Assembly: GCA_015272325.1 (NCBI GenBank) | Contig: JACYLU010000016.1 | Coordinates: 124,001-188,000, forward strand | DNA from: Synechococcales cyanobacterium C42_A2020_086 | GTDB taxonomy: Bacteria > Cyanobacteriota > Cyanobacteriia > Elainellales > Elainellaceae | Direction of reading: 5' to 3' | Length of the DNA stretch: 64,000 nt | Part shown: positions 21,466-35,377 of the stretch, one piece after another | Layout of the letters: every line of letters begins with the position of its first letter | How positions within the stretch are numbered: the stretch's first letter is position 1 | Position numbers and translations under genes: made by a program | The notes under the pieces: model-generated | The model's input: only the letters and a program-made list of their open reading frames with translations | The model's database searches: none | Told to the model about the DNA's origin: nothing

Positions 21466-21646
21466 CGTGTAGGGGCATTAAGCGCCGTTAACTGCTCTCA
21501 AGATTTTTCTCTTCAGGATCTCCCTTTGGATAGGTGCATCATTGGCTTGCATCTCGGATTCTGAGTAGGGCTTCACTTTCTGTGCCACGGCGAGCATTTT
21601 CTAGAGCATGTCCGCTGATCCAGCTGTTCTATTTATTCTGCTTTTT

Positions 21647-24436
21647 ATGAGAATTCCTACTGCTACCTATCGCATTCAATTTACGGCCGACTTTGGATTT
21701 GAATCCGCTCAAGCTATTACGCCCTATCTAGCCAAGCTAGGAATCTCTGACCTGTATGCCTCTCCTATCTTTAAAGCGCGATCGGGCAGTACCCACGGCT
21801 ATGATGTGGTAGATCCAACCCAGCTGAATCCCGAACTAGGAACACCCGAAGCCTTTGAAGCTCTGGTGCAGGACCTCCAGCAACGCCAGATGGGTTGGCT
21901 ACAGGATATTGTGCCCAATCACATGGCTTATGATAGCCAGAATCAATGGTTGATGGATGTTCTAGAGAATGGTCCTAGCTCTAATTATGTTGAGTATTTT
22001 GACATTGCTTGGAATGCACCTTTTGAAACTAAGCAAGAACCCATTCTGGTGCCATTACTGGGCGATTTTTATGGAACATGCCTAGAGAATGCAGAAATCC
22101 AGCTGCAATATGATGAACGCGGATTAAGCGTTAATTACTACAGCTTGCAAATTCCGTTGCGGCTAGAATCCTATGCGACCTTCCTCAGCTATAACCTTGG
22201 TCAACTCGCCCGGACGCTAGGACGCAAGAATCCTATTTTTATACGGTTGTTAGGGATTCTTTACACATTGAAGAATCTATCTCCTGAGATTATTGGAAAA
22301 CAACGGCAAGACCAAAGTGAATTTGTTAAAGGATTATTCTGGGAACTCTACACCGGCTACCCTGAAATTCAAGCCTTTATCGACGACAATATTCGCATTT
22401 TTAACGGCGAGAAGGGAAATCCCGAAAGCTTTAATCTCCTCGATGGACTGCTGAGCGAGCAGTTTTTCCGCCTTTCCTTCTGGAAGGTGGGAGCAGAAGA
22501 GATGAACTATCGCCGCTTTTTTGCAGTCAACGAGTTGATCTCGGTCAAGGTCGAAGAACTCAAGGTTTTCAACGCTACCCACGAGCTGATCTTTAAGCTC
22601 GTCAACGAAGGCAAATTCACCGGACTGCGAATTGACCACATTGACGGACTCTATGATCCAACCGAGTACCTCAGCCGATTGCGGGAGAAAACTGGTGATA
22701 CCTACATCACAGTCGAAAAGATTCTGCAGCCCGGTGAAAATTTGCCGCCCGTTTGGCAAATACAAGGCACGTCTGGCTATGACTATATGACCTTCATCAA
22801 CAGCGTCTTCTGTCAAACCGATCATCAAGCGGCTTTTGACGATCTCTACGCGGACCTTGCCCGCCAGCAGCCCTTCGAGGAATTGGCAGTCGAAAAGAAG
22901 CAGTTGATTCTCGATCGCAACTTGGCTGGCGATTTGGACAATCTAGCCGTGCTGCTGAAGCAAGTTTCTAGTAAATATCGCTACAGCAACGACTTCACGA
23001 TCAATGGGTTGAAGCGAGCCTTAGCAGCCGTGCTGACGCGCTTCCCGATCTACCGGACCTATACCAACGCCGATGGCTTGCTGGAGAGTGACCGCGCCTA
23101 TATTCAAACGGTCATCCAAACCGCCAAGGAGCATTCACCCCTGCTGCAAAACGAGCTGAACTTTATTGAAAAGCTGTTGCTGCTGGAGTACGACTCGTTC
23201 CTCAATCCCACGGAGAAAGCGCAATGGCTGTATTTGGTGATGCGCATTCAGCAGTATACCGGGCCCTTAATGGCTAAAGGCGTAGAAGACACCGCCCTGT
23301 ATGTTTACAACCGCCTTGTATCGCTGAATGAGGTGGGTGGCAATCCAGAGCGCTTTGGCATTCCGCTCGAGGAGCTGCATCAATTTCATCAGACGCGGCA
23401 GCAGCAGTGGCCCTATGCCATGAGTGCTACCTCGACCCATGACACTAAACGCGGCGAAGATGTACGCGCTCGCATCAATGTGTTGTCAGAAATGCCTCAC
23501 GAGTGGCAGCAGCAGGTGCAGCACTGGAGCGAGTTGAACCGCCGCTATAAGCAAGGCACCAAGGTAGCCCCAATGCCTGATCCCAATGACGAGTACGCCT
23601 TCTATCAAACTCTCCTTGGGGCTTTTCCCTTCCAGGACAGTGAGCGAGAATCCTTTATTGCTCGCATCAAGGATTATGTGATCAAGGCGATTCGCGAAGC
23701 CAAAATTCACACAACTTGGCTGCATCCCAATAGCGCCTACGAAACAGCCTTCACTGATTTTGTCAGTGCTGTGCTCACGCCTGCCCCAGACAATGCTTTT
23801 CTCCAGGTCTTTCTGCCGTTCCAGCAGCAGATCGCCCATTACGGTATTTTCAATTCCCTATCCCAAACGCTGATCAAAATGGCTGCTCCTGGCATTCCCG
23901 ATTTCTATCAGGGCAGTGAACTCTGGGATCTAAGCTTGGTAGACCCTGATAACCGCCGCCCCGTCGATTTTGAGCAGCGGCAGATGGTTTTAGATCAGCT
24001 ACACACTCAGATCCAGCAAGACCGGCTGGCGACGATAACTGACCTGCTTGACCATAAGGAGGACGGGCGCATCAAGCTGTTCCTAATAACCCAAGCCCTA
24101 CACGCTCGAGCTGCCCATCGCGATCTTTTCCAGGACGGTGCCTATCTGCCCCTGCAGGCAGCAGGTCGCTTTGCCCCTTCCGTCATCGCTTTTGCCCGGC
24201 AGCACGGCAATCGCACGGTTCTAGTGATCGCGCCTCGCTTCCTCACTTCGGTAGTCCAGCTGGGAGAGCTGCCCTTGGGTGACTGCTGGCACGATACCCA
24301 CCTCCTGCTGCCCGCCAATTCGGCTTCGGTCTGGCGAAATGTCTTTACCGATCAACCCTTGTCCGCGGAAGGCAAGCTGCCCCTGTCTGAAGCCCTCAGC
24401 CGGTTCCCGGTTGCACTGTTGATGGGTGAGTCGTAG
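21647..24436 (+). CDS. treY: Malto-oligosyltrehalose synthase
   Basis: Cytoplasmic GH13-family enzyme that isomerises the reducing-end glucose of maltodextrins to an alpha-1,1 linkage, the first step of the TreY/TreZ route to trehalose. The protein is 929 aa from ATG 21647 (MRIPTATYRIQF), the usual N-terminus of the family; a frame from 21608 adds 13 residues. Hallmarks: GISDLYASPIFKARSGSTHGYDVVDP, LQDIVPNHMAY, the catalytic region GLRIDHIDGLYDP, the large insertion between sheets typical of TreY, AKGVEDTALYVYNRL, STHDTKRGEDVRAR and GIPDFYQGSELWD. The partner TreZ is not in this window. Trehalose usually serves in desiccation or salt tolerance. Confidence 0.95.
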   Translation: MRIPTATYRIQFTADFGFESAQAITPYLAKLGISDLYASPIFKARSGSTHGYDVVDPTQLNPELGTPEAFEALVQDLQQRQMGWLQDIVPNHMAYDSQNQWLMDVLENGPSSNYVEYFDIAWNAPFETKQEPILVPLLGDFYGTCLENAEIQLQYDERGLSVNYYSLQIPLRLESYATFLSYNLGQLARTLGRKNPIFIRLLGILYTLKNLSPEIIGKQRQDQSEFVKGLFWELYTGYPEIQAFIDDNIRIFNGEKGNPESFNLLDGLLSEQFFRLSFWKVGAEEMNYRRFFAVNELISVKVEELKVFNATHELIFKLVNEGKFTGLRIDHIDGLYDPTEYLSRLREKTGDTYITVEKILQPGENLPPVWQIQGTSGYDYMTFINSVFCQTDHQAAFDDLYADLARQQPFEELAVEKKQLILDRNLAGDLDNLAVLLKQVSSKYRYSNDFTINGLKRALAAVLTRFPIYRTYTNADGLLESDRAYIQTVIQTAKEHSPLLQNELNFIEKLLLLEYDSFLNPTEKAQWLYLVMRIQQYTGPLMAKGVEDTALYVYNRLVSLNEVGGNPERFGIPLEELHQFHQTRQQQWPYAMSATSTHDTKRGEDVRARINVLSEMPHEWQQQVQHWSELNRRYKQGTKVAPMPDPNDEYAFYQTLLGAFPFQDSERESFIARIKDYVIKAIREAKIHTTWLHPNSAYETAFTDFVSAVLTPAPDNAFLQVFLPFQQQIAHYGIFNSLSQTLIKMAAPGIPDFYQGSELWDLSLVDPDNRRPVDFEQRQMVLDQLHTQIQQDRLATITDLLDHKEDGRIKLFLITQALHARAAHRDLFQDGAYLPLQAAGRFAPSVIAFARQHGNRTVLVIAPRFLTSVVQLGELPLGDCWHDTHLLLPANSASVWRNVFTDQPLSAEGKLPLSEALSRFPVALLMGES

Positions 24437-24549
24437 ACAACTTGGGGCATTGGCACTCCTTATAACTTTCGTCACTTTCCTATCACATTTGCTGGCGAAG
24501 GTAAGGATAAAACTTGAGTCCATGAGTACAGAAGAATTAGGAGAGCAGT

Positions 24550-25353
24550 ATGGATTGGCAAGCGGTTATGCACTGGCTGTATGTTGCGGGTATGGCCGTG
24601 GGGGCCCTACACTTTTGGGCGTTGAGCCGCGATCCAAAAGGGGTGCCGCAGTACGAATATCTGGTGGCCATTTTCATTCCCATCTGGTCGGGGTTAGCCT
24701 ACATGGCAATGGCGATCGATCAAGGCAAGGTGGAAGCAGCGGGGCAGGTGGCTCATTATGCCCGCTATGTAGACTGGATTGTCACGACACCGCTACTGCT
24801 GCTGGCGCTGTCCTGGACGGCGATGCAGTTTATCAAAAAAGATTGGACACTGATCGGATTTTTGATGAGTACCCAGGTCGTTGTGATCACCACCGGGCTG
24901 ATTGCCGATCTGTCGGAACGGGACTGGGTGCGCTATCTCTGGTATATCTGCGGTGTGGCGGCGTTTCTCGTGGTGCTGTGGGGAATTTGGGTACCTCTGC
25001 GGGCTAAAGCCAAAAGTCAGGGGCGGGAGTTGTCAGACCTGCATGACAAGCTGACGGTTTATTTCACCGTGCTGTGGATTGGCTATCCAATTGCTTGGCT
25101 GATTGGTCCCTCTGGCTTGGGCTGGGTGAATCAAGATATAGATACGTTGTTATTCTGCGTTCTGCCCTTCTTTTCTAAAGTGGGCTTTAGTTTTCTCGAT
25201 TTGCACGGTTTGCGCAGCCTGCAAGATCGTCGCTCCGAATCTAGGCTCGATCGAGCAGCCGATCAGGTGCTCCACTTCCTAGGACAAATTACGGCACTCT
25301 GGACTCCCCAATTCCCTCCCCGGCCGCAGCGCAAGCGACGCCTGCCCAGTTAG
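24550..25353 (+). CDS. Anabaena-type sensory rhodopsin (microbial rhodopsin)
   Basis: Seven-helix retinal protein of 267 aa, very close to Anabaena sensory rhodopsin along its whole length and colinear in residue numbering. The retinal-binding Lys is K210 in LPFFSKVGFSFLD. The primary counter-ion is D75 in ARYVDWIVTTPLLLL. The position of the bacteriorhodopsin proton donor (D96) is Ala 86, which is Ser in the Anabaena protein. The bacteriorhodopsin D212 position is Pro 206, a trait of the Anabaena protein, and D217 is retained. These features point to a sensor rather than a proton pump. The cytoplasmic tail is basic (RPQRKRRLPS). ATG 24550 follows AGGAGA. The soluble transducer gene that sits next to the Anabaena rhodopsin is absent; the next gene is a rhomboid protease 127 bp away. 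Confidence 0.95.
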   Translation: MDWQAVMHWLYVAGMAVGALHFWALSRDPKGVPQYEYLVAIFIPIWSGLAYMAMAIDQGKVEAAGQVAHYARYVDWIVTTPLLLLALSWTAMQFIKKDWTLIGFLMSTQVVVITTGLIADLSERDWVRYLWYICGVAAFLVVLWGIWVPLRAKAKSQGRELSDLHDKLTVYFTVLWIGYPIAWLIGPSGLGWVNQDIDTLLFCVLPFFSKVGFSFLDLHGLRSLQDRRSESRLDRAADQVLHFLGQITALWTPQFPPRPQRKRRLPS

Positions 25354-25480: not shown

Positions 25481-26176
25481 GTGGTTCCTTTAACTGACAA
25501 CAATCCCACTCGGATCACGCCCTATGTCAACTACATGCTCATTGGTCTGAATATTTTCATCTTCCTGTATCAGATCAGTCTGCCAGCCCCGGAACTGCTA
25601 GCGTTTATTCAAACCTATGCGGTTGTTCCTAGCGAACTCACCGCCAGCTTGGCGAGCGGCGACCCAGCGCAGATCGGACCGCAGGTAATGACGTTGTTTA
25701 CCTCCCAATTCTTGCATGGTGGATTTATGCACCTAGCGGGCAACATGCTGTTTCTTTGGGTATTTGGTAACAACATTGAAGATAAACTAGGGCATTTCCG
25801 GTTTCTCATCTTTTATTTGCTGTGTGGCGCACTGGCGGCGTTAGCGCAGTGGTTTTTCTCAATGGAGTCGAGTGTGCCGTCTTTGGGGGCGAGTGGGGCA
25901 ATTGCTGGAGTGCTAGGAGCGTATCTGTTGCGGTTTCCCCGAGCCAAAGTTTTGACGCTGGTGCCGCTTGGCTTTTTCATCACCACTTTTAGAATCCCGG
26001 CTGTGTTTTTCCTGGGATTTTGGTTTATACAGCAGGCGCTGTTTGGGGTTGCCAGTCTGCAAGTGCGGGGAGCGGCAGATACCGGCGGCATCGCCTATTG
26101 GGCCCATGCAGGCGGCTTTGTCTTTGGTATTATTTTGGCTCCTCTGTTTGGGTTATTTCGGTCTCAGGAGACGTGA
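25481..26176 (+). CDS. Rhomboid-family intramembrane serine protease
   Basis: Intramembrane protease of 231 aa with about six membrane segments. It has the catalytic serine motif GASGAIAGVLGAY (GxSG) and the partner histidine in the last helices (YWAHAGGFVFG). The loop-1 region FLHGGFMHLAGNMLFLWVFGNNIED contains the conserved HxxxN helix-2 pattern of the rhomboid family. Substrates are unknown. The start is GTG 25481 behind a CAGGAAAA ribosome site. It lies on the same strand as the rhodopsin but is separated by 127 bp, so a shared transcript is possible but not shown. Confidence 0.92.
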   Translation: MVPLTDNNPTRITPYVNYMLIGLNIFIFLYQISLPAPELLAFIQTYAVVPSELTASLASGDPAQIGPQVMTLFTSQFLHGGFMHLAGNMLFLWVFGNNIEDKLGHFRFLIFYLLCGALAALAQWFFSMESSVPSLGASGAIAGVLGAYLLRFPRAKVLTLVPLGFFITTFRIPAVFFLGFWFIQQALFGVASLQVRGAADTGGIAYWAHAGGFVFGIILAPLFGLFRSQET

Positions 26177-26344: not shown

Positions 26345-27682
26345 ATGCAACGGTTGTTGATGCACAACCCGATTGCCATTGCCGCCCTCTGGATTGTGGG
26401 TTATCTTGTGCTGACTTTATTCCCCTTGCTGGTGCTGCTTGTGTATCCGGCTCCGGTTGGGCGCGGCTTCTGGATTGAGTTTTCGGTGGCGCTGGGCTTT
26501 ATCGGGCTGGCCATGATGGCGCTGCAATTTGTGTTGACGGCTCGGGTGAATCGGATTGAAGCGTCCTACGGGATCGACATTCTGCTACAGTTTCATCGCT
26601 ACACCTCAATCGTGGCCTTTGTCATGGTGCTGGTGCATCCGATTATTCTTTTTATTGTTCAGCCCGAGACGCTGCAGCTCCTCAACTTTCCGCAAGCACC
26701 CTGGCGTGCTCGCATGGCTGTTTTAGGAACGCTCGCGTTTCTGGCTATGGTGGTAACCACGATCTGGCGTAAACCCTTGAAGATCCCCTATGAACCCTGG
26801 CGCGCCTCTCACACGGTGCTAGCAGTCTTGGCAGTGGGGTTGGGGTTTGGTCACGCCGTTGGGGTAGGCAACTATTTGGGACTGTTTTGGAAAGTAGTCC
26901 TATGGTCTGCCATTATGCTGGTTTCGCTTTGGCTGATTCTCTATGTGCGGCTTGTCAAGCCTTGGCTGGCGATGAAAAAGCCCTACGTTGTCGAGGCAAT
27001 TACCCCGGAGCGAGGAGATGTCTGGACCTTGGCTTTGCGTCCGTTAGGGCATGAAGGTTTCACCTTTGAACCCGGTCAGTTTGCTTGGTTAACGCTGAAT
27101 ATTACCCCCTTTAGTATGCGGGAACATCCCTTTTCCATGTCATCGAGTGGGGAGCGATCGGATCGGATCGAATTCGGCATCAAAGCCCTAGGGGACTTCA
27201 CCAAGCGAATTCAGGACTATCCGCCTGGCACGAAAGCCTACCTCGATGGACCCTACGGTGTATTCACCATTGACCGCTACTGGGATAGTGCTGGCTTTGT
27301 GTTGATCGCTGGAGGTGTGGGCATTACTCCTATTTACAGCATGTTGCGAACCGCAGCCGAACGCAAAGATGATCGTCCTTTTCTGCTGATTTATTCGGCC
27401 AACTCTTGGGAGGATATCACCTACCGAGAAGAGCTAGAAGCCCTGAAAGAGTCTCTCGATCTCACTATTGTGTATGTGCTGCGGAAAGCTGACGATGATT
27501 GGCAAGGAGAGACCGGCTATGTCGATCGAGACTTGCTAGAGAAATATATTCCGATTCATCGGGGCAGTCGCCATTACTTTGTTTGTGCAGCTCCGGTCAT
27601 GATGGATACGGTAGAACGGGCTTTGTTCGACTTGGATGTTCCGGTGACCAATGTTCACATGGAGCACTTTAACCTTGCATAA
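26345..27682 (+). CDS. NOX/ferric-reductase-like transmembrane flavocytochrome
   Basis: Membrane protein of 445 aa. The N-terminal half has about six membrane helices of the ferric reductase-like fold with haem-ligand histidines (FHRYTSIVAFVMVLVHP and ASHTVLAVLAVGLGFGHAVG, two His pairs). A ferredoxin-reductase-type FAD domain follows (FEPGQFAWLTL, REHPFSMSSS) and then an NAD(P) domain (IAGGVGITPIYSMLR, YFVCAAPVMMDTVE). It should pass electrons from cytoplasmic NAD(P)H across the membrane to ferric iron or oxygen; the acceptor cannot be read from sequence. ATG 26345 follows TAGGAGAG. The C-terminus is intact (EHFNLA). Confidence 0.9.
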   Translation: MQRLLMHNPIAIAALWIVGYLVLTLFPLLVLLVYPAPVGRGFWIEFSVALGFIGLAMMALQFVLTARVNRIEASYGIDILLQFHRYTSIVAFVMVLVHPIILFIVQPETLQLLNFPQAPWRARMAVLGTLAFLAMVVTTIWRKPLKIPYEPWRASHTVLAVLAVGLGFGHAVGVGNYLGLFWKVVLWSAIMLVSLWLILYVRLVKPWLAMKKPYVVEAITPERGDVWTLALRPLGHEGFTFEPGQFAWLTLNITPFSMREHPFSMSSSGERSDRIEFGIKALGDFTKRIQDYPPGTKAYLDGPYGVFTIDRYWDSAGFVLIAGGVGITPIYSMLRTAAERKDDRPFLLIYSANSWEDITYREELEALKESLDLTIVYVLRKADDDWQGETGYVDRDLLEKYIPIHRGSRHYFVCAAPVMMDTVERALFDLDVPVTNVHMEHFNLA

Positions 27683-27901: not shown

Positions 27902-29959
27902 ATGGCCCTGATTTTTAGTGCTTTATTTCCATCCGTGCAAAACTTTTTAGCCTCGCTGTTGCCATCTGGTCCAATTACCGATCCGGTGGCGATTTTTCTG
28001 ATCATCATGGCCATTATGCTGGTTGCCCCGTTGCTATTTGAACGGCTGCGGCTGCCAGGCATTGTGGGTTTGATCTTAGCCGGGGTACTGGTGGGTCCCC
28101 ACGGTTTCGGGTTACTCGAACGAGACAGCACAATTGTCCTGCTGGGAACCGTAGGACTGCTCTTTCTCATGTTTATGGCCGGACTGGAAACCAGCCTAGA
28201 TGACTTAAAGTACAACGCGAACAAAGCTATTGTCTTCGGGTTAACCACCTTTGGCGTTCCCATGGTGTTGGGCGTTGCCGCGATGGTGCTGCTGGGCTAT
28301 TCCTGGCTGGCGGCCGTCCTGGTAGCATCCTGCTTTGCATCCCACACGCTGCTGGCGCTGCCAATTGCGAGCAAGCTGGGCATCATGCGTTCATCTGCGG
28401 TGACTACCACCCTAGGAGGAACGTTAATTACCAACGTGCTGGCGCTGCTGGTATTAGCAATAGTGGTGAGAGCGCACCAAGGGGACTTGACGCTGCAATT
28501 CTGGCTGTTTCTGATTCCTTCGCTGGCTCTCTACACCTTTGCAACCCTTTGGGGCGTTCCGAAGCTTGGGCGCTGGTTTTTTCGTCGCTTTGGCCATGAT
28601 GAAGGCGCTGAGTTTACCTTTGTAGTGGCAACGCTGTTTGTGGTGTCTTATCTGGCAAGGCTGATCGAAATTGAGCCGATTATTGGGGCTTTTCTGGCAG
28701 GAATCGCCATTACGCAGTTGATTCCCCAGCTTAGCCCGCTGATGAACCGAATCCAGTTTATTGGCAACACGCTGTTTGTGCCCTTTTTCTTGATCTCGGT
28801 CGGGATGCTGGTGAATCCGCTGATTTTGCTGCAGGAACCTCGCTCGCTGCTGGTCTCGGCGGTGATGGTCGGCGTGGCTATTGTGGCGAAGCTGCTGCCG
28901 GCCTGGGGGTCTGGAAAACTCTTCCGGTTTGATTCCTCGAGCATCATGGTGATGTTTGGACTGTCGGTGGCTCAGGCAGCCTCCACATTAGCGGCTATCA
29001 CCGTTGCCTACAACATCCAGCTCGTTGATCAGCTCACCGTCAACGGTACGATTGCCATGATCTTGGTGACCTGCCTTGCCTCGCCTTGGATTACCGCCCG
29101 ATGGGGACAGAGTATGAAGCCCAGCCCGCGCCCCAAGGCAACGGCAACCGTGAGCCAAGCTCCTCCCCAATACCGCATCTTGGTGCCGGTCGCTAACCCT
29201 AGCACCGAAGATAACCTGCTGCAACTAGCCCTGATCTTGGCCAAAAGCACTGAGGGCACGCTGTTGCCATTGCATGTGCTGATTGATCCCTACACGCCTA
29301 TTCCTCCAGAAGCCAAACTCCAGCAAATGCGGTTACTCGCCGCTGCCGAGACCATTGCCCATGCTGCCGTCACTAAAGTTGAGCCAATTGGTCGCGTTGA
29401 TGACTCGATCGACAAGGGTATTCTGCGGACCGCGCAAGAGCACGACGCTAACCTGATCATCTGCGGTTGGAAGGGTTATTCTACCTATCGCGATAATTTC
29501 TTTGGCAGCGTCATTGACAATGTGGCTCGTCGCACACCTGTGCCAATGCTCATTACTCGCTTTGTGCATCCGATTGAGTCTACCCAGCGGGTTTTCTTGG
29601 CATTATCTGATCAAGAGCCAATCGAAGTGATCCAGCAGACGCTAGTGCTGACCCGCACTCTAGCCACAGAATTGAAAGCCTCACTGCAGGTGTTGCAGGT
29701 GGTCTCTCGGTCGCGCCTCAACACATTACCCGAGATTCCAGGATTAGACGAGGACACCCCAGTGCAGCGCGTGCAGGGAAATTTTGTAGATCAGGTATCG
29801 CGAATTCTGCAGCTCGACGACTTGCTTGTGCTGCCCCACAATGCCCAGCCGGAACTGAGAGGAATGCCTACGTTAGGCATGGCTCCCGAGGCATTAGCTC
29901 GCCAGCATCCCGACGTATCAATTATCGTTGCCCATTTTCCGCTCCAGTATGCTAGCTAG
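27902..29959 (+). CDS. CPA2 cation:proton antiporter with C-terminal universal-stress domains
   Basis: Kef/NapA-type antiporter of 685 aa. The membrane part (about 1-400) has about 12 helices with family features PGIVGLILAGVLVGPHGFGLL, FLMFMAGLETSLDDLK and GAFLAGIAITQLI. The remainder (about 420-685) contains two regions similar to universal stress proteins (YRILVPVANPSTEDNLLQLALIL; HDANLIICGWKGYSTYRDNFFGSVIDNV with the nucleotide-binding-like G-x2-G layout; ALSDQEPIEVIQQTL). It should exchange Na+ or K+ for H+ across plasma or thylakoid membrane, with the soluble domains as possible regulators. The ribosome site is weak and the adjacent ATG at 27897 is out of frame. Confidence 0.92.
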   Translation: MALIFSALFPSVQNFLASLLPSGPITDPVAIFLIIMAIMLVAPLLFERLRLPGIVGLILAGVLVGPHGFGLLERDSTIVLLGTVGLLFLMFMAGLETSLDDLKYNANKAIVFGLTTFGVPMVLGVAAMVLLGYSWLAAVLVASCFASHTLLALPIASKLGIMRSSAVTTTLGGTLITNVLALLVLAIVVRAHQGDLTLQFWLFLIPSLALYTFATLWGVPKLGRWFFRRFGHDEGAEFTFVVATLFVVSYLARLIEIEPIIGAFLAGIAITQLIPQLSPLMNRIQFIGNTLFVPFFLISVGMLVNPLILLQEPRSLLVSAVMVGVAIVAKLLPAWGSGKLFRFDSSSIMVMFGLSVAQAASTLAAITVAYNIQLVDQLTVNGTIAMILVTCLASPWITARWGQSMKPSPRPKATATVSQAPPQYRILVPVANPSTEDNLLQLALILAKSTEGTLLPLHVLIDPYTPIPPEAKLQQMRLLAAAETIAHAAVTKVEPIGRVDDSIDKGILRTAQEHDANLIICGWKGYSTYRDNFFGSVIDNVARRTPVPMLITRFVHPIESTQRVFLALSDQEPIEVIQQTLVLTRTLATELKASLQVLQVVSRSRLNTLPEIPGLDEDTPVQRVQGNFVDQVSRILQLDDLLVLPHNAQPELRGMPTLGMAPEALARQHPDVSIIVAHFPLQYAS

Positions 29960-30102: not shown

Positions 30103-30642
30103 TTAGTTCAAAATTTGATAGCTAATTAGTTTTCTGATGCTATCAGCAGATAGTCCCAATTTTTGCGCCAAGATGGTCTCGATTTGATACGGCTGAGTCG
30201 CTGGAATCACATAAATCTTTTGGTGCACAGCTACATCCAACGGTCGATCTGAAGGCGAATCTGGTGATGAATCCAAATATGAGTCTGAATATGAAGAATA
30301 TGAATCTGAGTGTAGGTTGATGACATGGACAAAAACAGTGGTTTTCGCAGCGCGGCGGTCAACCTCAGCGCTAATTCTGGTCATGCCTCTCGTTCGTTCC
30401 CCGTGGAGGGGTTGATCGGCTTGCAACAAGTTTACTGAATCATTTGGTCGTGACAAAACCCAATCAGCCAGCCAATTGCCGCCTGCCCAAAAGAGCAAAG
30501 CAATTGCAGGTAGCGGCAGCCAAAACTCCCAACCGGAGCGATGCCAGAGAGAGAGCAACCGTGAAGCCATCATTGGATTCGAGTCGAGCCATCTGCGTTC
30601 TAACATTTGCGTTCTAACACGCTCTAATATCTGAGCCAACAT
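30103..30642 (-). CDS. Single-span membrane protein with Ser/Asp/Tyr-rich repeat, unassigned
   Basis: Protein of 179 aa. One hydrophobic segment (about residues 38-58, FWLPLPAIALLFWAGGNWLAD) is followed by a polar domain with a low-complexity repeat (HSDSYSSYSDSYLDSSPDSP) and a short C-terminal region (YVIPATQPYQIETILAQKLGL). The N-terminus itself is repetitive (LERVRTQMLERRW) because of a 14-bp-period duplication in the DNA near 30594-30621. In-frame ATGs at 30606 and 30570 could be alternative starts. No family recognised. Confidence 0.5.
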   Translation of the reverse strand: MLAQILERVRTQMLERRWLDSNPMMASRLLSLWHRSGWEFWLPLPAIALLFWAGGNWLADWVLSRPNDSVNLLQADQPLHGERTRGMTRISAEVDRRAAKTTVFVHVINLHSDSYSSYSDSYLDSSPDSPSDRPLDVAVHQKIYVIPATQPYQIETILAQKLGLSADSIRKLISYQILN

Positions 30643-30770
30643 CTGAGCCTGACAACATCTAAGCCTGATGCTAACCAGGGCAGTTTTGAAGGCGAGAACC
30701 TTCGTTTATTCACATCCTATCCCACTTTAGATGAGTCGAGATCTCACTTGTGAGGGACGCTCTTGCCCCA

Positions 30771-30804
30771 TGACAAAGTGTAATCTATGACAAAGTGTAA
30801 TCTA
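30771..30804. repeat. 17-bp perfect tandem duplication upstream of rppA
   Basis: TGACAAAGTGTAATCTA occurs twice in succession, ending 95 bp before the rppA start. As direct repeats in a response-regulator promoter they could be binding sites, but they also fit the general pattern of tandem duplications in this window. Confidence 0.9.
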
Positions 30805-30899
30805 CAGAGGCAAGATGGCAGTTTGATCTACACCCTATGCAGACGCAGTAAGACACAGTAAATAGTGGATGAAATAGTGGGTGCGTCCGGAGTTGTCCT

Positions 30900-31574
30900 A
30901 TGCGAATCTTACTAGTCGAAGATGATAGCGCTCAATTAGAACCACTCCATACAGCTCTAGTCGAGGCAGGGCACATCGTAGATGGGGTTCAGGATGGTGC
31001 CATTGCCCAATGGATTTTGGGTAAGCGCGACTACGATTTGCTCATCCTAGACTGGCTGCTGCCCCAAGTGAGTGGCTTGAGCCTGTGTCAGCAGTACCGT
31101 CAGCTTGGGAAAACTGCGCCGGTGCTGATGTTAACTGCTAAAGACACAACCTTTGACAAGATTAACGGTCTCGATGCCGGAGCCGATGACTATCTTGTTA
31201 AACCGGCAGATGTGTTTGAATTGCTAGCTCGAGTGCGTGCCCTGGGACGTCGCTCGCCACTCTGGAAGGGCGATACGTTACAGATTGAAGATCTCACCCT
31301 AAATCTGTCTACTTTGACAGTAGAACGGGGCGAGCAGCAGTTGCCGCTCTCGACTCGCGAATTTCAGTTGCTGGAATATCTAATGCGACATCCACGTCAG
31401 GTGCTGTCTCGCAACCAGATCGAGCAGACCCTCTGGGAGTGGGGCAGCGAGCCGGAAAGCAATGCGATTACGGCACTCGTGCGGCGATTACGACAGCGGC
31501 TGCAGATAGTTGGTGCAGCCCATTGGCTAGAAACTGTCTACGGCATGGGGTATCGACTCAATCCAGATGTTTAA
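30900..31574 (+). CDS. rppA: RppA/NrsR-like OmpR-family response regulator
   Basis: Response regulator of 224 aa. The receiver has VEDDSAQLEPL, phospho-acceptor D51 (LLILDWLLPQVSG) and the conserved Lys in DDYLVKPADVFEL. The winged-helix domain includes QLPLSTREFQLLEYLM, VLSRNQIEQTLWEW, LVRRLRQRL and ETVYGMGYRL. The EPL / DWLLPQVSG / GLDAGADDYLVKP pattern is that of cyanobacterial RppA (also called NrsR), which with RppB responds to plastoquinone redox state or nickel in Synechocystis. Its last 8 bp overlap the kinase gene (GATGTTTAA), so the pair is translationally coupled. A 17-bp direct repeat lies about 100 bp upstream. Confidence 0.88.
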   Translation: MRILLVEDDSAQLEPLHTALVEAGHIVDGVQDGAIAQWILGKRDYDLLILDWLLPQVSGLSLCQQYRQLGKTAPVLMLTAKDTTFDKINGLDAGADDYLVKPADVFELLARVRALGRRSPLWKGDTLQIEDLTLNLSTLTVERGEQQLPLSTREFQLLEYLMRHPRQVLSRNQIEQTLWEWGSEPESNAITALVRRLRQRLQIVGAAHWLETVYGMGYRLNPDV

Positions 31575-32847
31575 TCGCAGCCGCCGCAATTTAGCTCATT
31601 GGTTTACGCTGTCGATGGGCAGCATTTTGATCCTGTTTGCCGGAGTGGTTTACTATCAGCGGGCTGTGGATTGCCTAGAGGTCACAGACCGCCTGCTCTA
31701 TCGCAAAACCGGCGTCATGGCGGCTAATATCGACTACCGCAGCGAGCAGGGACAAGAAGTTGTTGACCTCAGCAACGTGCCAATTCTGGGGAATTATGCG
31801 CCACCCGTTGGCAGCAATCTAGTTTATGCCCGCTGGTATTCCGCTACAGGGACACTGCGGCAGTTTTACGGAATGCAGCCTCCCGAGCAGCTGCAGTACA
31901 CTGCGGCCTTCGAGACTCTACGCCCCAATGCTGTTTCCGATAATGCCCAAGATACTGCCTGGTTGCGCCAGCTAACGTTGCCCGTGACTCACAACGGTCG
32001 CCGTCTCGGGTATCTTCAGGTCGCCGTTCCCCTGACGGAAGCGCGAGCGGATCTCCACGAACTGCTGCGGGTGCTGCTGCTTGCGGTACCGCTGACCTTG
32101 GGGGGAATTGGCCTGGTGGGCTGGTGTCTGAGCGGGCTAGCGATGCGCCCTATCCGAGAGTCCTATAACCAGCTACAGCGATTTACTTCCGATGCGTCTC
32201 ACGAGCTACGAGCACCGTTAGCAGCCATTCTAAGCAATGCTCAAGTGGGACTGCTTAGCCCCATTGAAGCAGGACAGCCCAAGCATCTGCGCTTGAAAAA
32301 AATTGCCGCTGCCGCTAAGTCGATGAATACCCTGGTTAGCGATCTACTGTTTCTGGCCCGCCAAGCCGGACGTTTAGACCCTACCTCGCTACAGCCCGTT
32401 AACCTCAATGGATTGCTCAAGGACACGATTGTCACTGCCCCTGTGCAGCTAGCCGCCCAGCATTTGACGCTGCATCTCGCCCTCCCAGACGAACCCATCC
32501 TGATCCACGGCAATGCTGATCTGCTGCGCCAAGCCCTCACTAATCTTCTGATTAATGCCTGCAAATATACCCAAGCCGGAGGAACCGTCTGGTTGCGCTT
32601 GATCGGTCAATATCACCGTACAGTCATTCAGGTGGAAGACACCGGCATTGGCATTCCAGCCTCCGATTTGCCCCATATCTTTGAGCGCTTTTACCGAGTG
32701 GACGAAGAGCGAACCCGAGAAACCGGCGGTTCAGGACTCGGACTGGCAATCGCGCAGCAGATTGTAGAAGCTCACGGCGGTCGCCTAACCGCCACTAGCA
32801 TTGTCGGTGAAGGATCACTCTTTCAAATAGAGCTACCGTTGCTCTAG
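31567..32847 (+). CDS. rppB: RppB/NrsS-like sensor histidine kinase
   Basis: Membrane sensor kinase of 426 aa that pairs with the regulator directly upstream (8-bp overlap). N-terminal membrane segment (FTLSMGSILILFAGVVYY), extracytoplasmic sensor region of about 130 residues (about 40-170), and second membrane segment (VLLLAVPLTLGGIGLVGW). The HisKA domain has the phosphorylated His near residue 211 in DASHELRAPLAAI. The HATPase domain has N box LLINACKYT, G1 DTGIGIP, F box FERFY and G2 GGSGLGLAIAQQI. All kinase motifs are intact. The signal cannot be read from the sensor part; the assignment follows the partner and the overall layout. Confidence 0.88.
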   Translation: MFNRSRRNLAHWFTLSMGSILILFAGVVYYQRAVDCLEVTDRLLYRKTGVMAANIDYRSEQGQEVVDLSNVPILGNYAPPVGSNLVYARWYSATGTLRQFYGMQPPEQLQYTAAFETLRPNAVSDNAQDTAWLRQLTLPVTHNGRRLGYLQVAVPLTEARADLHELLRVLLLAVPLTLGGIGLVGWCLSGLAMRPIRESYNQLQRFTSDASHELRAPLAAILSNAQVGLLSPIEAGQPKHLRLKKIAAAAKSMNTLVSDLLFLARQAGRLDPTSLQPVNLNGLLKDTIVTAPVQLAAQHLTLHLALPDEPILIHGNADLLRQALTNLLINACKYTQAGGTVWLRLIGQYHRTVIQVEDTGIGIPASDLPHIFERFYRVDEERTRETGGSGLGLAIAQQIVEAHGGRLTATSIVGEGSLFQIELPLL

Positions 32848-32914
32848 CTTGTCCTGAGCGTCACTTTGATGTCATTTTTTAGCCTCATGCTGGAAGCCAA
32901 GGGAGCCACCGTCT

Positions 32915-34348
32915 ATGCCGCAGAATCCGATGTTAGTTCCGCAATTCCTAGGTTGGCAGGGCATCGCTAGCCCACTCCTAGGGCGGTTTCGCGGGTTGCT
33001 GTGCTTGGCGGGCATGGCAGGGGTGTTGCTGCTGGGTTCGGCTGCAGCGCAGGAAGCCCCGCCCCTTGCGACTCCTCCCCTGCAGACAACTGCCCCAGAA
33101 GGACTGTTTTTTGCTGATGTGGTGGTGCGAGGGCAACCCGTCTTTCAGATTGGCGGACTGTCTGATCTGAGCGCAACCGAGCGAGCCAGAATCGTCAATC
33201 GCCGCATCGCTAGCATTTTGGCGCAACCCGGCAGTGGGCGTACCGTCACCGTACAGGCCGATCCCACTCGCGGCATTGCCACGTTGCAGGTGAATAACCG
33301 CGTGTTGATGACCGTCACCCAACAGGACGCCCAAGATTTCAATCAGCCGGTAGGGATATTGGCGCAACAGTGGGCAACCCAGCTCACCCAATCCTTTGAG
33401 CAGCCGCCCTTAGCAATTGATGTGGGACAGCGGCTATACTCAACAGTACGGCAATTTCAGCGCGATCTGATCGACCAGTTGCCTGCCCTGATTGGGGCAT
33501 TACTGGTGATTGTCCTGACATGGCTGCTCGCGGTGAGTGTGCGTCGCCTAATGATGATGGGAGCGCGACACTGGGAGGTCGATCATAACTCCAAAGTGCT
33601 GGTAAGTCGTCTGGGCTATGGTGGCGTTTGGGTACTTGGCGCTGTCGTAGCCCTAGGACTACTGGGACTGGATTTTGCCACCATGCTAGGCACCTTGGGG
33701 TTGACGAGCGTGGCTATTGGTTTTAGTCTGCGCGATGTCTTGAGTAATTACTTTTCGGGCATTATTCTCTTGGCGTCGCGTCCATTTCGCTTGGGTGATC
33801 AGGTCGTGATCAGAGAGTTTGAGGGCACCGTGACGCAGATCCAGCTGCGGGCAACCACGATTCAAACCTACGATGGGCGCACGGTTTACATTCCCAACCA
33901 AGAGGTCTTTAACGCCAGCATCGTCAATAACACGTTGGCAACCATTCGCCGCAGCGAAATTACAGTGGGGGTCAGCTATGAGGCAGACTTGCATCGCGTC
34001 AAGCAGATTATTCGCCAAGCCGTATTAAGCACCGAAGGGGTGGAACCGGAGCCTGCCCCAGATATTTTTGTTTGGGAACTGGGCATGAGTACCGTCAACA
34101 TCCGCATCCGCATTTGGGTGAATTCCCGCCGTCTGTCGTTTTTGGAGAGCACGTCACGGGCAACACAAGCTATCAAAGAAGCTTTACAGCGGGAGCAGAT
34201 TGAGATGCCCAATGAAATTTATACCGTTAAATTAGAGACCCAGTCGCCTCTGGCAATGCCCAACGCCCAGTTTGCTTCAGCATCGTCCAATCATCACCAA
34301 CTTGCTGCGCTGACTCAGGATATGGAGGCTCACACAGATGATGCATAG
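32915..34348 (+). CDS. MscS-family mechanosensitive ion channel
   Basis: Membrane channel of 477 aa that opens under hypo-osmotic stress. N-terminal signal or anchor segment (LLCLAGMAGVLLLGSAAAQE), then a periplasmic domain (about 50-190), then membrane helices (LIGALLVIVLTWLLAVSVRRLM; LGYGGVWVLGAVVALGLL). The pore-lining segment and beta domain are typical of MscS: ATMLGTLGLTSVAIGFSLRDVLSNYFSGIILL and RPFRLGDQVVIREFEGTVTQI. The long periplasmic N-terminal extension places it with the larger MscS-like proteins common in cyanobacteria. A GGGAG ribosome site precedes ATG 32915. Confidence 0.93.
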   Translation: MPQNPMLVPQFLGWQGIASPLLGRFRGLLCLAGMAGVLLLGSAAAQEAPPLATPPLQTTAPEGLFFADVVVRGQPVFQIGGLSDLSATERARIVNRRIASILAQPGSGRTVTVQADPTRGIATLQVNNRVLMTVTQQDAQDFNQPVGILAQQWATQLTQSFEQPPLAIDVGQRLYSTVRQFQRDLIDQLPALIGALLVIVLTWLLAVSVRRLMMMGARHWEVDHNSKVLVSRLGYGGVWVLGAVVALGLLGLDFATMLGTLGLTSVAIGFSLRDVLSNYFSGIILLASRPFRLGDQVVIREFEGTVTQIQLRATTIQTYDGRTVYIPNQEVFNASIVNNTLATIRRSEITVGVSYEADLHRVKQIIRQAVLSTEGVEPEPAPDIFVWELGMSTVNIRIRIWVNSRRLSFLESTSRATQAIKEALQREQIEMPNEIYTVKLETQSPLAMPNAQFASASSNHHQLAALTQDMEAHTDDA

Positions 34349-34471: not shown

Positions 34472-35377
34472 ATGGCTATCAAACGCTCGCGTCGCTCATG
34501 GGGTCGCTTACTCAAACGCACTACTGCTGAATGGCAACGACAGGAGGTATCGCTGCTCGCTTCCGCATTAGCCTACTCCACCGTGTTTTCCTTAGCACCC
34601 CTGATGATCTTAGTGATGCTGATATTGGGGGCCATTTTTGGTGAAGCTGCTGCTAGAGAGCAAATTGTCTCGCAGCTTGCCGAGTTAATGGGAGACGAAG
34701 GCGCAGAACTCATAGCCACTGCCATTACCAATCTGCGAGCGCAGACCCAAGGCGGTCGGTTGCAGCTTGTGCTCAGCTTGGGCTTCTTTGCTTTTGGTGC
34801 CTCTAGTGTGTTTGCACAAATTCAGAATTCTTTAGATCGCATTTGGGATGTCAAGCCGGTTCCCGGACGACATGTGTTTCATTTCCTGCGTAAACGGCTG
34901 CTATCGTTTGCCATGATCCTAGTGATCGCATTTTTGCTGCTGGTTTCTTCCATCGCCACCACGACATTGGCGTTGGTCGTTAGTAGCCTCAATCAATGGA
35001 TTCCAGGTCTAGGGTACTTTTGGCAAATTTTGCGCTGGATCGTTTCCTTCGGGGTTATTTCGGCTGTGTTTGCCGCTATGTATACGATTTTGCCCGATGC
35101 TGAAATTCACTGGCGCGACACGTTGATCGGAGCTATGATCACTGCCCTTCTGTTCCTGATCGGACAGAGCTTGTTCGGCTTGTTTCTCAACAATGTGGAC
35201 ATTGGCTCAGCTTACGGGGTTGCAGGTTCATTTTTAATCGTGATCACTTGGATTTTTTATGCAGCTCAAATCCTGTTTTCAGGAGCAGTTTTCACCAAAG
35301 TGTATGCTCGCCAGCGCGGCGTACCCATCGTACCATCCGACTTTGCAGTGTCCACGGCAGAAAATGAACGTCGCTAG
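34472..35377 (+). CDS. YihY/virulence factor BrkB family membrane protein (copy 1)
   Basis: Membrane protein of 301 aa with about six helices and the YihY/BrkB pattern: ASALAYSTVFSLAPLMILV, SSVFAQIQNSLDRIWDVKP, YTILPDAEIHWRDTLIGAM and YGVAGSFLIVITWIFYAAQILFSGAVFTKVYA. The molecular function of this family is unknown; it was once mistaken for ribonuclease BN. A second, diverged member lies on the other strand at 41086-42045. Close neighbours are an MscS channel and a kinase-like membrane protein, which suggests an envelope-stress setting but nothing firmer. Confidence 0.9.
   Translation: MAIKRSRRSWGRLLKRTTAEWQRQEVSLLASALAYSTVFSLAPLMILVMLILGAIFGEAAAREQIVSQLAELMGDEGAELIATAITNLRAQTQGGRLQLVLSLGFFAFGASSVFAQIQNSLDRIWDVKPVPGRHVFHFLRKRLLSFAMILVIAFLLLVSSIATTTLALVVSSLNQWIPGLGYFWQILRWIVSFGVISAVFAAMYTILPDAEIHWRDTLIGAMITALLFLIGQSLFGLFLNNVDIGSAYGVAGSFLIVITWIFYAAQILFSGAVFTKVYARQRGVPIVPSDFAVSTAENERR

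Follow-up and report, generated by a model that had tools for sequence, protein, structure and literature searches.

A cyanobacterial sensory rhodopsin gene with an operator-like repeat in an apparent two-component stress regulon

Anabaena sensory rhodopsin (ASR), discovered in 2003, belongs to a family of proteins that bind retinal and isomerise it in light; photochromic cis/trans switching without pumping is expected of its clade. Its tail reportedly affects transcription. In Anabaena PCC 7120, ASR and its transducer ASRT are encoded in one operon. The accessible text of De Souza et al. (2009; PMC2739507) describes ASR-ASRT linkage only in Nostoc, and that of Ugalde et al. (2011; PMC3198991) reports no ASRT in the other xenorhodopsin genomes then known. 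The cellular role of the clade was called unclear in 2020, in the available part of PMC7541481. What we add is the regulatory and genomic context; no report of the repeat or regulon described below was found in the accessible parts of the open-licence literature.

CcaR is a two-component regulator of the OmpR class, and operators of the OmpR/PhoB class consist of tandem half-sites about 11 bp apart. The G-box read by CcaR, CTTTCCGATTTCTTTACGATTT, consists of two 11-bp direct repeats (PMC8256508, available part). A motif has also been published for RppA (PMC13421787, available part), of the RppA/RppB system of Synechocystis. The OrrA regulon of Nostoc/Anabaena (osmotic/desiccation) controls osmolyte genes for trehalose and sucrose (PMC13131328). 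The accessible portion of this source gave nothing usable on a binding-site motif, TCAC, a direct repeat or rhodopsin, and that of PMC12157317 nothing usable on a motif, TCAC or rhodopsin.

We analysed a 64,000-nucleotide stretch of DNA from Synechococcales cyanobacterium C42_A2020_086 (the window). By an operator-like repeat and by repeated linkage, its ASR gene looks like a member of an apparent two-component stress regulon. The features concerned are as follows (window coordinates, strand).

21608..24436, +, TreY, malto-oligosyltrehalose synthase, next gene upstream of ASR (TIGR02401, 953.7 bits; cut-off 498.65)
24471..24492, +, operator-like 11-bp direct repeat GTCACTTTCCTATCACATTTGC, located 34 bp downstream of the TreY stop and 57 bp upstream of the ASR start codon
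24550..25353, +, ASR-clade rhodopsin gene, 267 aa (D75, A86, P206, K210, D217)
25481..26176, +, rhomboid protease gene (PF01694, E 2.8e-35)
26345..27682, +, ferric-reductase-like flavocytochrome, FRE (PF01794, PF08022, PF00175)
27902..29959, +, CPA2-type cation/proton antiporter with a Usp domain (PF00999, PF00582; TIGR00932, 124 bits, below the cut-off of 238)
30103..30642, -, FAM3, small protein lacking Pfam and NCBIfam matches; divergent from the response regulator gene
30900..31574, +, OmpR-class response regulator (RR), RppA equivalog (NF041734, 262.5 bits; cut-off 250)
31567..32847, +, sensor histidine kinase (HK), RppB-like (NF041735, 296.4 bits, below the curated cut-off of 400)
32860..32881, +, second operator-like repeat, between the kinase and MscS-type channel genes (17.0 bits)
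32915..34348, +, MscS-family mechanosensitive channel (PF00924, PF21082)
34472..35377, +, BrkB/YihY-family membrane protein (PF03631)

The rhodopsin, ASRT and the retinal source

The rhodopsin ORF matched Pfam Bac_rhodopsin with an E value of 1.2e-69 and was the sole PF01036 match in its genome; its best solved relative was Anabaena sensory rhodopsin (1xio, E 6.6e-138). ASR numbering is valid for the window protein because its alignment with the ASR chain 2m3g had no gaps over residues 2-229. A sequence-only reading of this DNA had described an ASR-type protein with K210, D75, P206 and D217, and this numbering confirmed all four. Among 46 distinct clade proteins, each of at least 220 aa, the Schiff-base lysine K210, the counter-ion D75 and P206 were invariant, and D217, in the cytoplasmic half, was present in 44, with Glu in two. 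P206 occupies the position of BR Asp212, where a Pro has been suggested as diagnostic of the xenorhodopsin clade (PMC3198991, accessible text).

Two further traits had been singled out, Ala86 in place of the Ser86 of Anabaena and a long basic tail. The residue was read correctly but is not unusual, Ala being the majority state in the clade (Ala 31, Ser 13, Thr 2). The tail is indeed basic, as it is throughout the clade (net charge +2 to +10, 46/46); with 47 aa beyond residue 220, however, it exceeds that of 1xio (a protein of 261 aa) by little and lies within the 38-50 aa of 36/46 clade proteins, the other 10 having 17-24 aa. This tally ruled out both traits as peculiarities of the window protein, which, judged by its residues, is an ordinary ASR-clade (xenorhodopsin-clade) retinal protein. 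Because the tail is positively charged in all 46, contact of the tail with DNA or lipid is a plausible question. A short-tail subclade (L100, L105, L109, L110, L111) carried E198, S178 and mostly T123, and two ASR paralogues of one genome (L078 and L107; G265:C57 and C128) had a natural Glu217.

No match to ASRT (PF07100) at E 0.001 was found in the whole genome (5.93 Mb, 99.99% complete, 38 contigs); the same profile found ASRT in 15 of 388 cyanobacterial genomes and in a Thermotoga control. We did not file the window as an ASR-ASRT system, since ASRT was found neither in the operon nor elsewhere in this genome. The reported absence of an adjacent transducer held, and so did the 127-bp gap between the ASR stop and the start of the rhomboid gene. 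Of the two options that had been left, a transducer elsewhere or a different mode of signalling, the former is excluded within the detection range of PF07100. The suggestion that a missing linked transducer is unusual was not supported. A search with seven ASRT queries placed ASRT beside ASR in 1 of 63 ASR loci (56 distinct, window included; the seven duplicates were removed in later counts), so linkage is the exception. That locus, in Spirirestis rafaelensis (L053, 10001-11178), is a linked pair outside PCC 7120, with ASRT at most 10 bp after ASR, where the window has the rhomboid gene. ASR-clade genes or relics were present at 52 places in 44 of the 388 genomes. ASRT was absent from 36 of the 44; in the eight with both, the two genes were never neighbours, lying on different contigs or, in G025, 2.6 Mb apart.

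The genome-wide search also covered a carotenoid oxygenase as a source of retinal. The gene G000:C37:201166 matched the Synechocystis apocarotenoid-15,15'-oxygenase (2biw) with an E value of 1.9e-199 and thus encodes a retinal-forming type of enzyme. By homology, the retinal route expected of an ASR-ASRT system appears to be present.

An 11-bp direct repeat upstream of ASR and of other genes

Absent from the sequence-only reading were a repeat upstream of ASR and a FAM3-RR-HK module (30103-32847) about 5 kb downstream, both in the same window. The 11-bp direct repeat, GTCACTTTCNNATCACATTTGC, has the half-sites TCACTTT and TCACATTT. It was first noticed on inspection of ASR upstream regions, and a 22-bp matrix was trained on it. 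The repeat was present upstream of ASR in 36 of the 52 loci and missing from 16. The 36 sites scored at least 23 bits on the better strand, and the next score was 10.6; left out of training one at a time, they still scored at least 19.8, and the maximum of 2600 shuffles was 13.9. At 14 bits or more, the matrix matched 36/52 ASR upstream regions versus 28/410 other genes of the same loci, the thresholds (14 or 16 bits, and the strong-FAM3 limit below) having been chosen after data inspection. Among 25 of the 28 non-ASR matches listed, seven were FRE genes.

The window ASR site (24471..24492) scored 33.3 bits, the highest of the 52 regions, and 33.1 when left out of training. Only one other window site reached 13 bits, that before the MscS gene (32860); 60 order-1 random windows contained a mean of 0.07 sites of at least 16 bits. 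Pairs of half-sites (TCAYHTT) 5-29 bp apart were at 11-bp spacing in 36 of 38 cases, which is the spacing of OmpR/PhoB-class operators. The CcaR G-box shares this direct-repeat geometry but differs in sequence from both half-sites. The repeat also preceded the ASR of the linked L053 pair, at 240 bp from its start and with a score of 27.4 bits. In the short-tail subclade (L100, L105, L109-L111), the repeat lay between ASR and a divergent P-type ATPase gene, at several loci as an inverted pair.

Within the ASR loci, 92 sites scored at least 16 bits, 11 of them without a named ORF. A site between divergent genes being scored for both, such sites lay within 350 bp before ASR in 33 loci, AI-2E-permease genes in nine, FRE genes in nine and P-type-ATPase genes in eight, with fewer for other families; MscS and trehalose-synthase-like genes were also preceded by the repeat. 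A window scan found no repeat before TreY, and there was none upstream of the window FRE. ASRT was ruled out as a hidden member of the regulon, the repeat lying upstream in 1 of 15 ASRT loci and that one with an apparent ASR relic between. This locus (L036; G107:C21) has the repeat about 420 bp upstream of ASRT, then an apparent gutted ASR relic consisting of its start and tail, then ASRT; read by eye, it looks like a decayed ASR-ASRT operon. The two RPE65-type oxygenase genes were likewise ruled out, with no repeat upstream.

The window's own genome contained 20 matches to the pattern TCAYWTTNNNRTCAYWTTT with at most one mismatch, versus three to the reversed pattern. On contigs other than that of ASR, sites were found before the gene of an alpha-amylase-family enzyme that shares 85% identity with the trehalose-synthase-like enzyme encoded after ASR in another genome (G186), before a short-chain dehydrogenase gene, and divergently before an AI-2E-family permease, which is of another subfamily because it is only 33% identical to the ASR-linked one of L102. 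In G186, homologues of two window genes followed operator copies: that of the rhomboid gene (70% identical; copy about 290 bp upstream, L215) and that of the BrkB-like gene (63% identical, L217). The repeat was also found there before an AI-2E permease.

Linkage to a FAM3-RR-HK module

Clustering of genes within 8 kb of ASR (54 loci) gave AI-2E permease (15), FRE (13), FAM3 (13), P-type ATPase (12), DUF389-type (10) and Na/H antiporter (8) families, and kinases/regulators (21, a broad class). Pfam and NCBIfam searches of individual members supplied the names, except that the DUF389, amino-acid-permease and Na/H labels are provisional ones given by eye (TIGR00271 in one DUF389-type member); some loci are short, and neighbours may be missed. 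Another small protein without a name, FAM8 (L081 8350-8721 and relatives), combines a hydrophobic stretch with a C-x2-C...C region; it occurred close to ASR in 7 of 54 loci and followed repeats in five. FAM3 is probably a membrane protein, judged by eye from a hydrophobic stretch near its N end.

A FAM3 profile search matched 91 of the 388 genomes, of which 88 were used after weak or fragmentary rows (G265:C108, G170:C32, G317:C79, G200:C79:40604, G193:C227, G053:C32) had been dropped and split rows merged. The 47 best rows, scoring at least 128.8 bits in 40 genomes, were termed strong FAM3. FRE, searched at E 1e-100, was found in 63 genomes. The ASR set (52 places, 44 genomes) included fragments, and 53 other rhodopsin places of at most 37% identity, without the 26% fragment G095:C31, served as the comparison set. 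Match coordinates and counts for the linkage, repeat-pattern and tree tallies were entered by hand.

In genomes with FAM3 or FRE, ASR lay within 10 kb of either at 24 of 48 places and other rhodopsins at 0 of 32; the number of linked ASR places expected from copy number and genome size, with relatedness ignored, was 0.37 over all 52. In 14 of the 44 ASR genomes, FRE lay no more than 10 kb from ASR. Order and orientation varied: ASR followed by a convergent FAM3 and then RR-HK, ASR-FRE-FAM3, RR-HK divergent from ASR, and ASR divergent from FRE. In 27 of the 30 FAM3 loci inspected, which included loci with and loci lacking ASR, FAM3 stood beside an RppA-type RR and divergent from it. FRE-FAM3 neighbours also occurred in genomes without an ASR-clade gene (G145, G190, G240, G251, G129), so the module also occurs independently of ASR.

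A quick ASR tree placed the linked state in five families (f1, f13, f16, f21, f25), with at least eight changes needed, five of them forced by starred branches. It is also clustered (8 changes versus 14.6 in shuffles), so the linkage and pattern tallies count related genomes repeatedly. The repeat was carried by 18/18 linked and 14/28 unlinked rows of the tree.

Perfect matches to the pattern numbered 212 in the 388 genomes, versus 69 for the reversed-pattern control. Their abundance follows FAM3 even in genomes that lack ASR: the 40 strong-FAM3 genomes held 106 matches versus 3, and the 11 of them without ASR held 23 versus 1. Counts were 12 versus 3 in the 15 ASR genomes without strong FAM3, 10 versus 10 in the 48 with weak FAM3 only, and 94 versus 63 where both ASR and strong FAM3 were absent. 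FRE was ruled out as a tracker of the repeat, since the 24 genomes with FRE and neither ASR nor strong FAM3 gave 8 versus 6. The 300 genomes without FAM3 showed a mild excess (96 versus 56), with 18 of the 96 in G038 alone. In that genome, which has no ASR-clade or FAM3 match, there were nine per strand and no control match; they are perhaps a repeat family. Among 150 matches listed, 56 were within 6 kb of ASR, FAM3, FRE or ASRT, and 33 of these were not near ASR. In the ASR-less genomes G145 and G073, sites lay in the gap that separates a P-type ATPase gene from a divergent neighbour, and also before an amino-acid-permease-like gene beside the kinase.

For individual ASR loci, the association of the repeat with strong FAM3 was real but loose: the repeat was present at 25 and absent at 6 loci with strong FAM3, and present at 6 and absent at 9 without it (p 0.009). 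Of the six repeat-bearing loci without strong FAM3, two are in assemblies of at least 300 contigs (G071, G293) and three in G265, which holds a FAM3 fragment.

The regulator and the place of ASR

We propose, with a probability of about 0.58, that ASR is expressed from its own promoter through the repeat, probably bound by the RppA-type RR, as an output of an osmotic- or envelope-stress response, and that in this genome it works without ASRT. FAM3 and HK would sense the stress and the RR would then be phosphorylated. This OmpR-class, RppA-type regulator would bind the 11-bp repeat, as the co-distribution of repeat and FAM3 suggests, and asr would be transcribed together with osmotic and envelope genes. 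The module's set would comprise MscS, the trehalose-synthase-like enzyme, the AI-2E permease, a cation ATPase and the ferric-reductase-like protein; like the OrrA regulon, it would be an osmotic gene set that includes trehalose. As in the rest of its family, ASR is expected to bind retinal and isomerise in light. It might then act through its basic cytoplasmic tail or directly on membrane physiology. Two findings make this stress-regulon reading slightly less secure: linkage is clustered on the tree, and no repeat precedes the window FRE.

If this holds, the repeat, being common to MscS, trehalose-synthase-like, cation-transport and ferric-reductase-like genes, gives ASR a concrete physiological setting; a candidate regulator and growth conditions for an ASR phenotype follow from it, for a rhodopsin whose proposed partner ASRT is mostly absent.

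The window module resembles RppA/RppB in that its RR scored above the RppA cut-off and RppB was the best NCBIfam match of its kinase. It differs in its extra FAM3 protein and in the kinase, which we call only RppB-like because it scored below the NF041735 cut-off. The published RppA motif was ruled out as a window signal (24 matches, 21.7 expected).

We consider it rather unlikely that ASR belongs to the regulon but that another OmpR-class regulator (e.g. of OrrA or RcaC type), one that accompanies the FAM3 module, binds the repeat, while the linked RR uses another motif, AAATCTNACTNNNGANAGACGYT. This motif was found upstream of RppA-type RR genes (window 30900; L127-L156), and in 18 of 27 loci its distance to the RR was 50-60 bp. 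Left out of training, 24 of 27 FAM3-RR intergenic regions exceeded the shuffles' 99th percentile for it, versus 1 of 27 with the TCAC repeat. The repeat may belong to another regulator because the RR promoter lacks it and has this different conserved motif. Against this, the pattern counts track strong FAM3 closely, and neither FRE alone nor weak FAM3 alone. The RR-promoter motif scored higher on average in ASR upstream regions than in those of other genes (3.8 versus 1.4, p 0.0003), but was ruled out as the ASR operator, since 2 of 51 reached 12 bits (6 of 414 for other genes). Other regulators also act on asr, because asr-asrt of Anabaena PCC 7120 is listed as a FurA target (-50-fold; PMC12282138, accessible part).

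Our preferred reading could be extended to a closed circuit, in which FAM3-HK-RR, on sensing osmotic or envelope stress, induces ASR through the repeat and illuminated ASR acts back on that kinase or on the channels and transporters so induced. We regard this as unlikely. If true, the drying/osmotic response would be gated by the colour or intensity of light and would need no ASRT, and the ASRT of Anabaena would have been added locally to a rhodopsin/two-component stress circuit of greater age.

We give less credence to ASR as an input, a light-changed rhodopsin that touches FAM3 or HK in the membrane and so tunes the RR. Such contact would suit the five short-tail loci (L100, L105, L109-L111), in which FAM3 is convergent after ASR at no more than 60 bp and is followed by RR-HK, and L096, in which RR-HK is divergent at 145 bp from ASR; for Cyanothece PCC 7424, the available text of Ugalde et al. 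(2011; PMC3198991) mentions a two-component system close to the gene. Half of the unlinked tree rows, however, have the repeat although neither FAM3 nor FRE lies nearby, which fits an output better.

Similarly doubtful is the view that ASR does not signal but, driven by light, weakly carries protons inward and so serves the stressed membrane. Xenorhodopsins such as 7zmy are relatives of the window protein, and the clade is termed light-driven inward H+ pumps in the accessible part of PMC7541481. D217E makes ASR an inward transporter (cited in the available text of PMC3198991), and the two G265 copies have this Glu naturally. The window protein has D217, however, and the same part of PMC7541481 records no detectable ion transport by Anabaena ASR.

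That ASR merely hitchhikes on a mobile stress island, with linkage of no functional meaning, is improbable: ASR rows of different families do group together, the linked label is clustered and several copies are broken or partial, but the repeat precedes ASR even where no module gene is near and is common to unlinked genes of the window's genome. An ASRT gene missed by the assembly or profile is least probable of all, the assembly being unclosed (38 contigs) but 99.99% complete and PF07100 having worked in cyanobacteria and Thermotoga.

The broken or partial ASR copies were L087 and L088 (G040), L084 (G113), L079 (G265:C61), L125 (G220) and L126 (G109). Several of them still adjoin the module or the repeat, and their presence suggests repeated loss of ASR.
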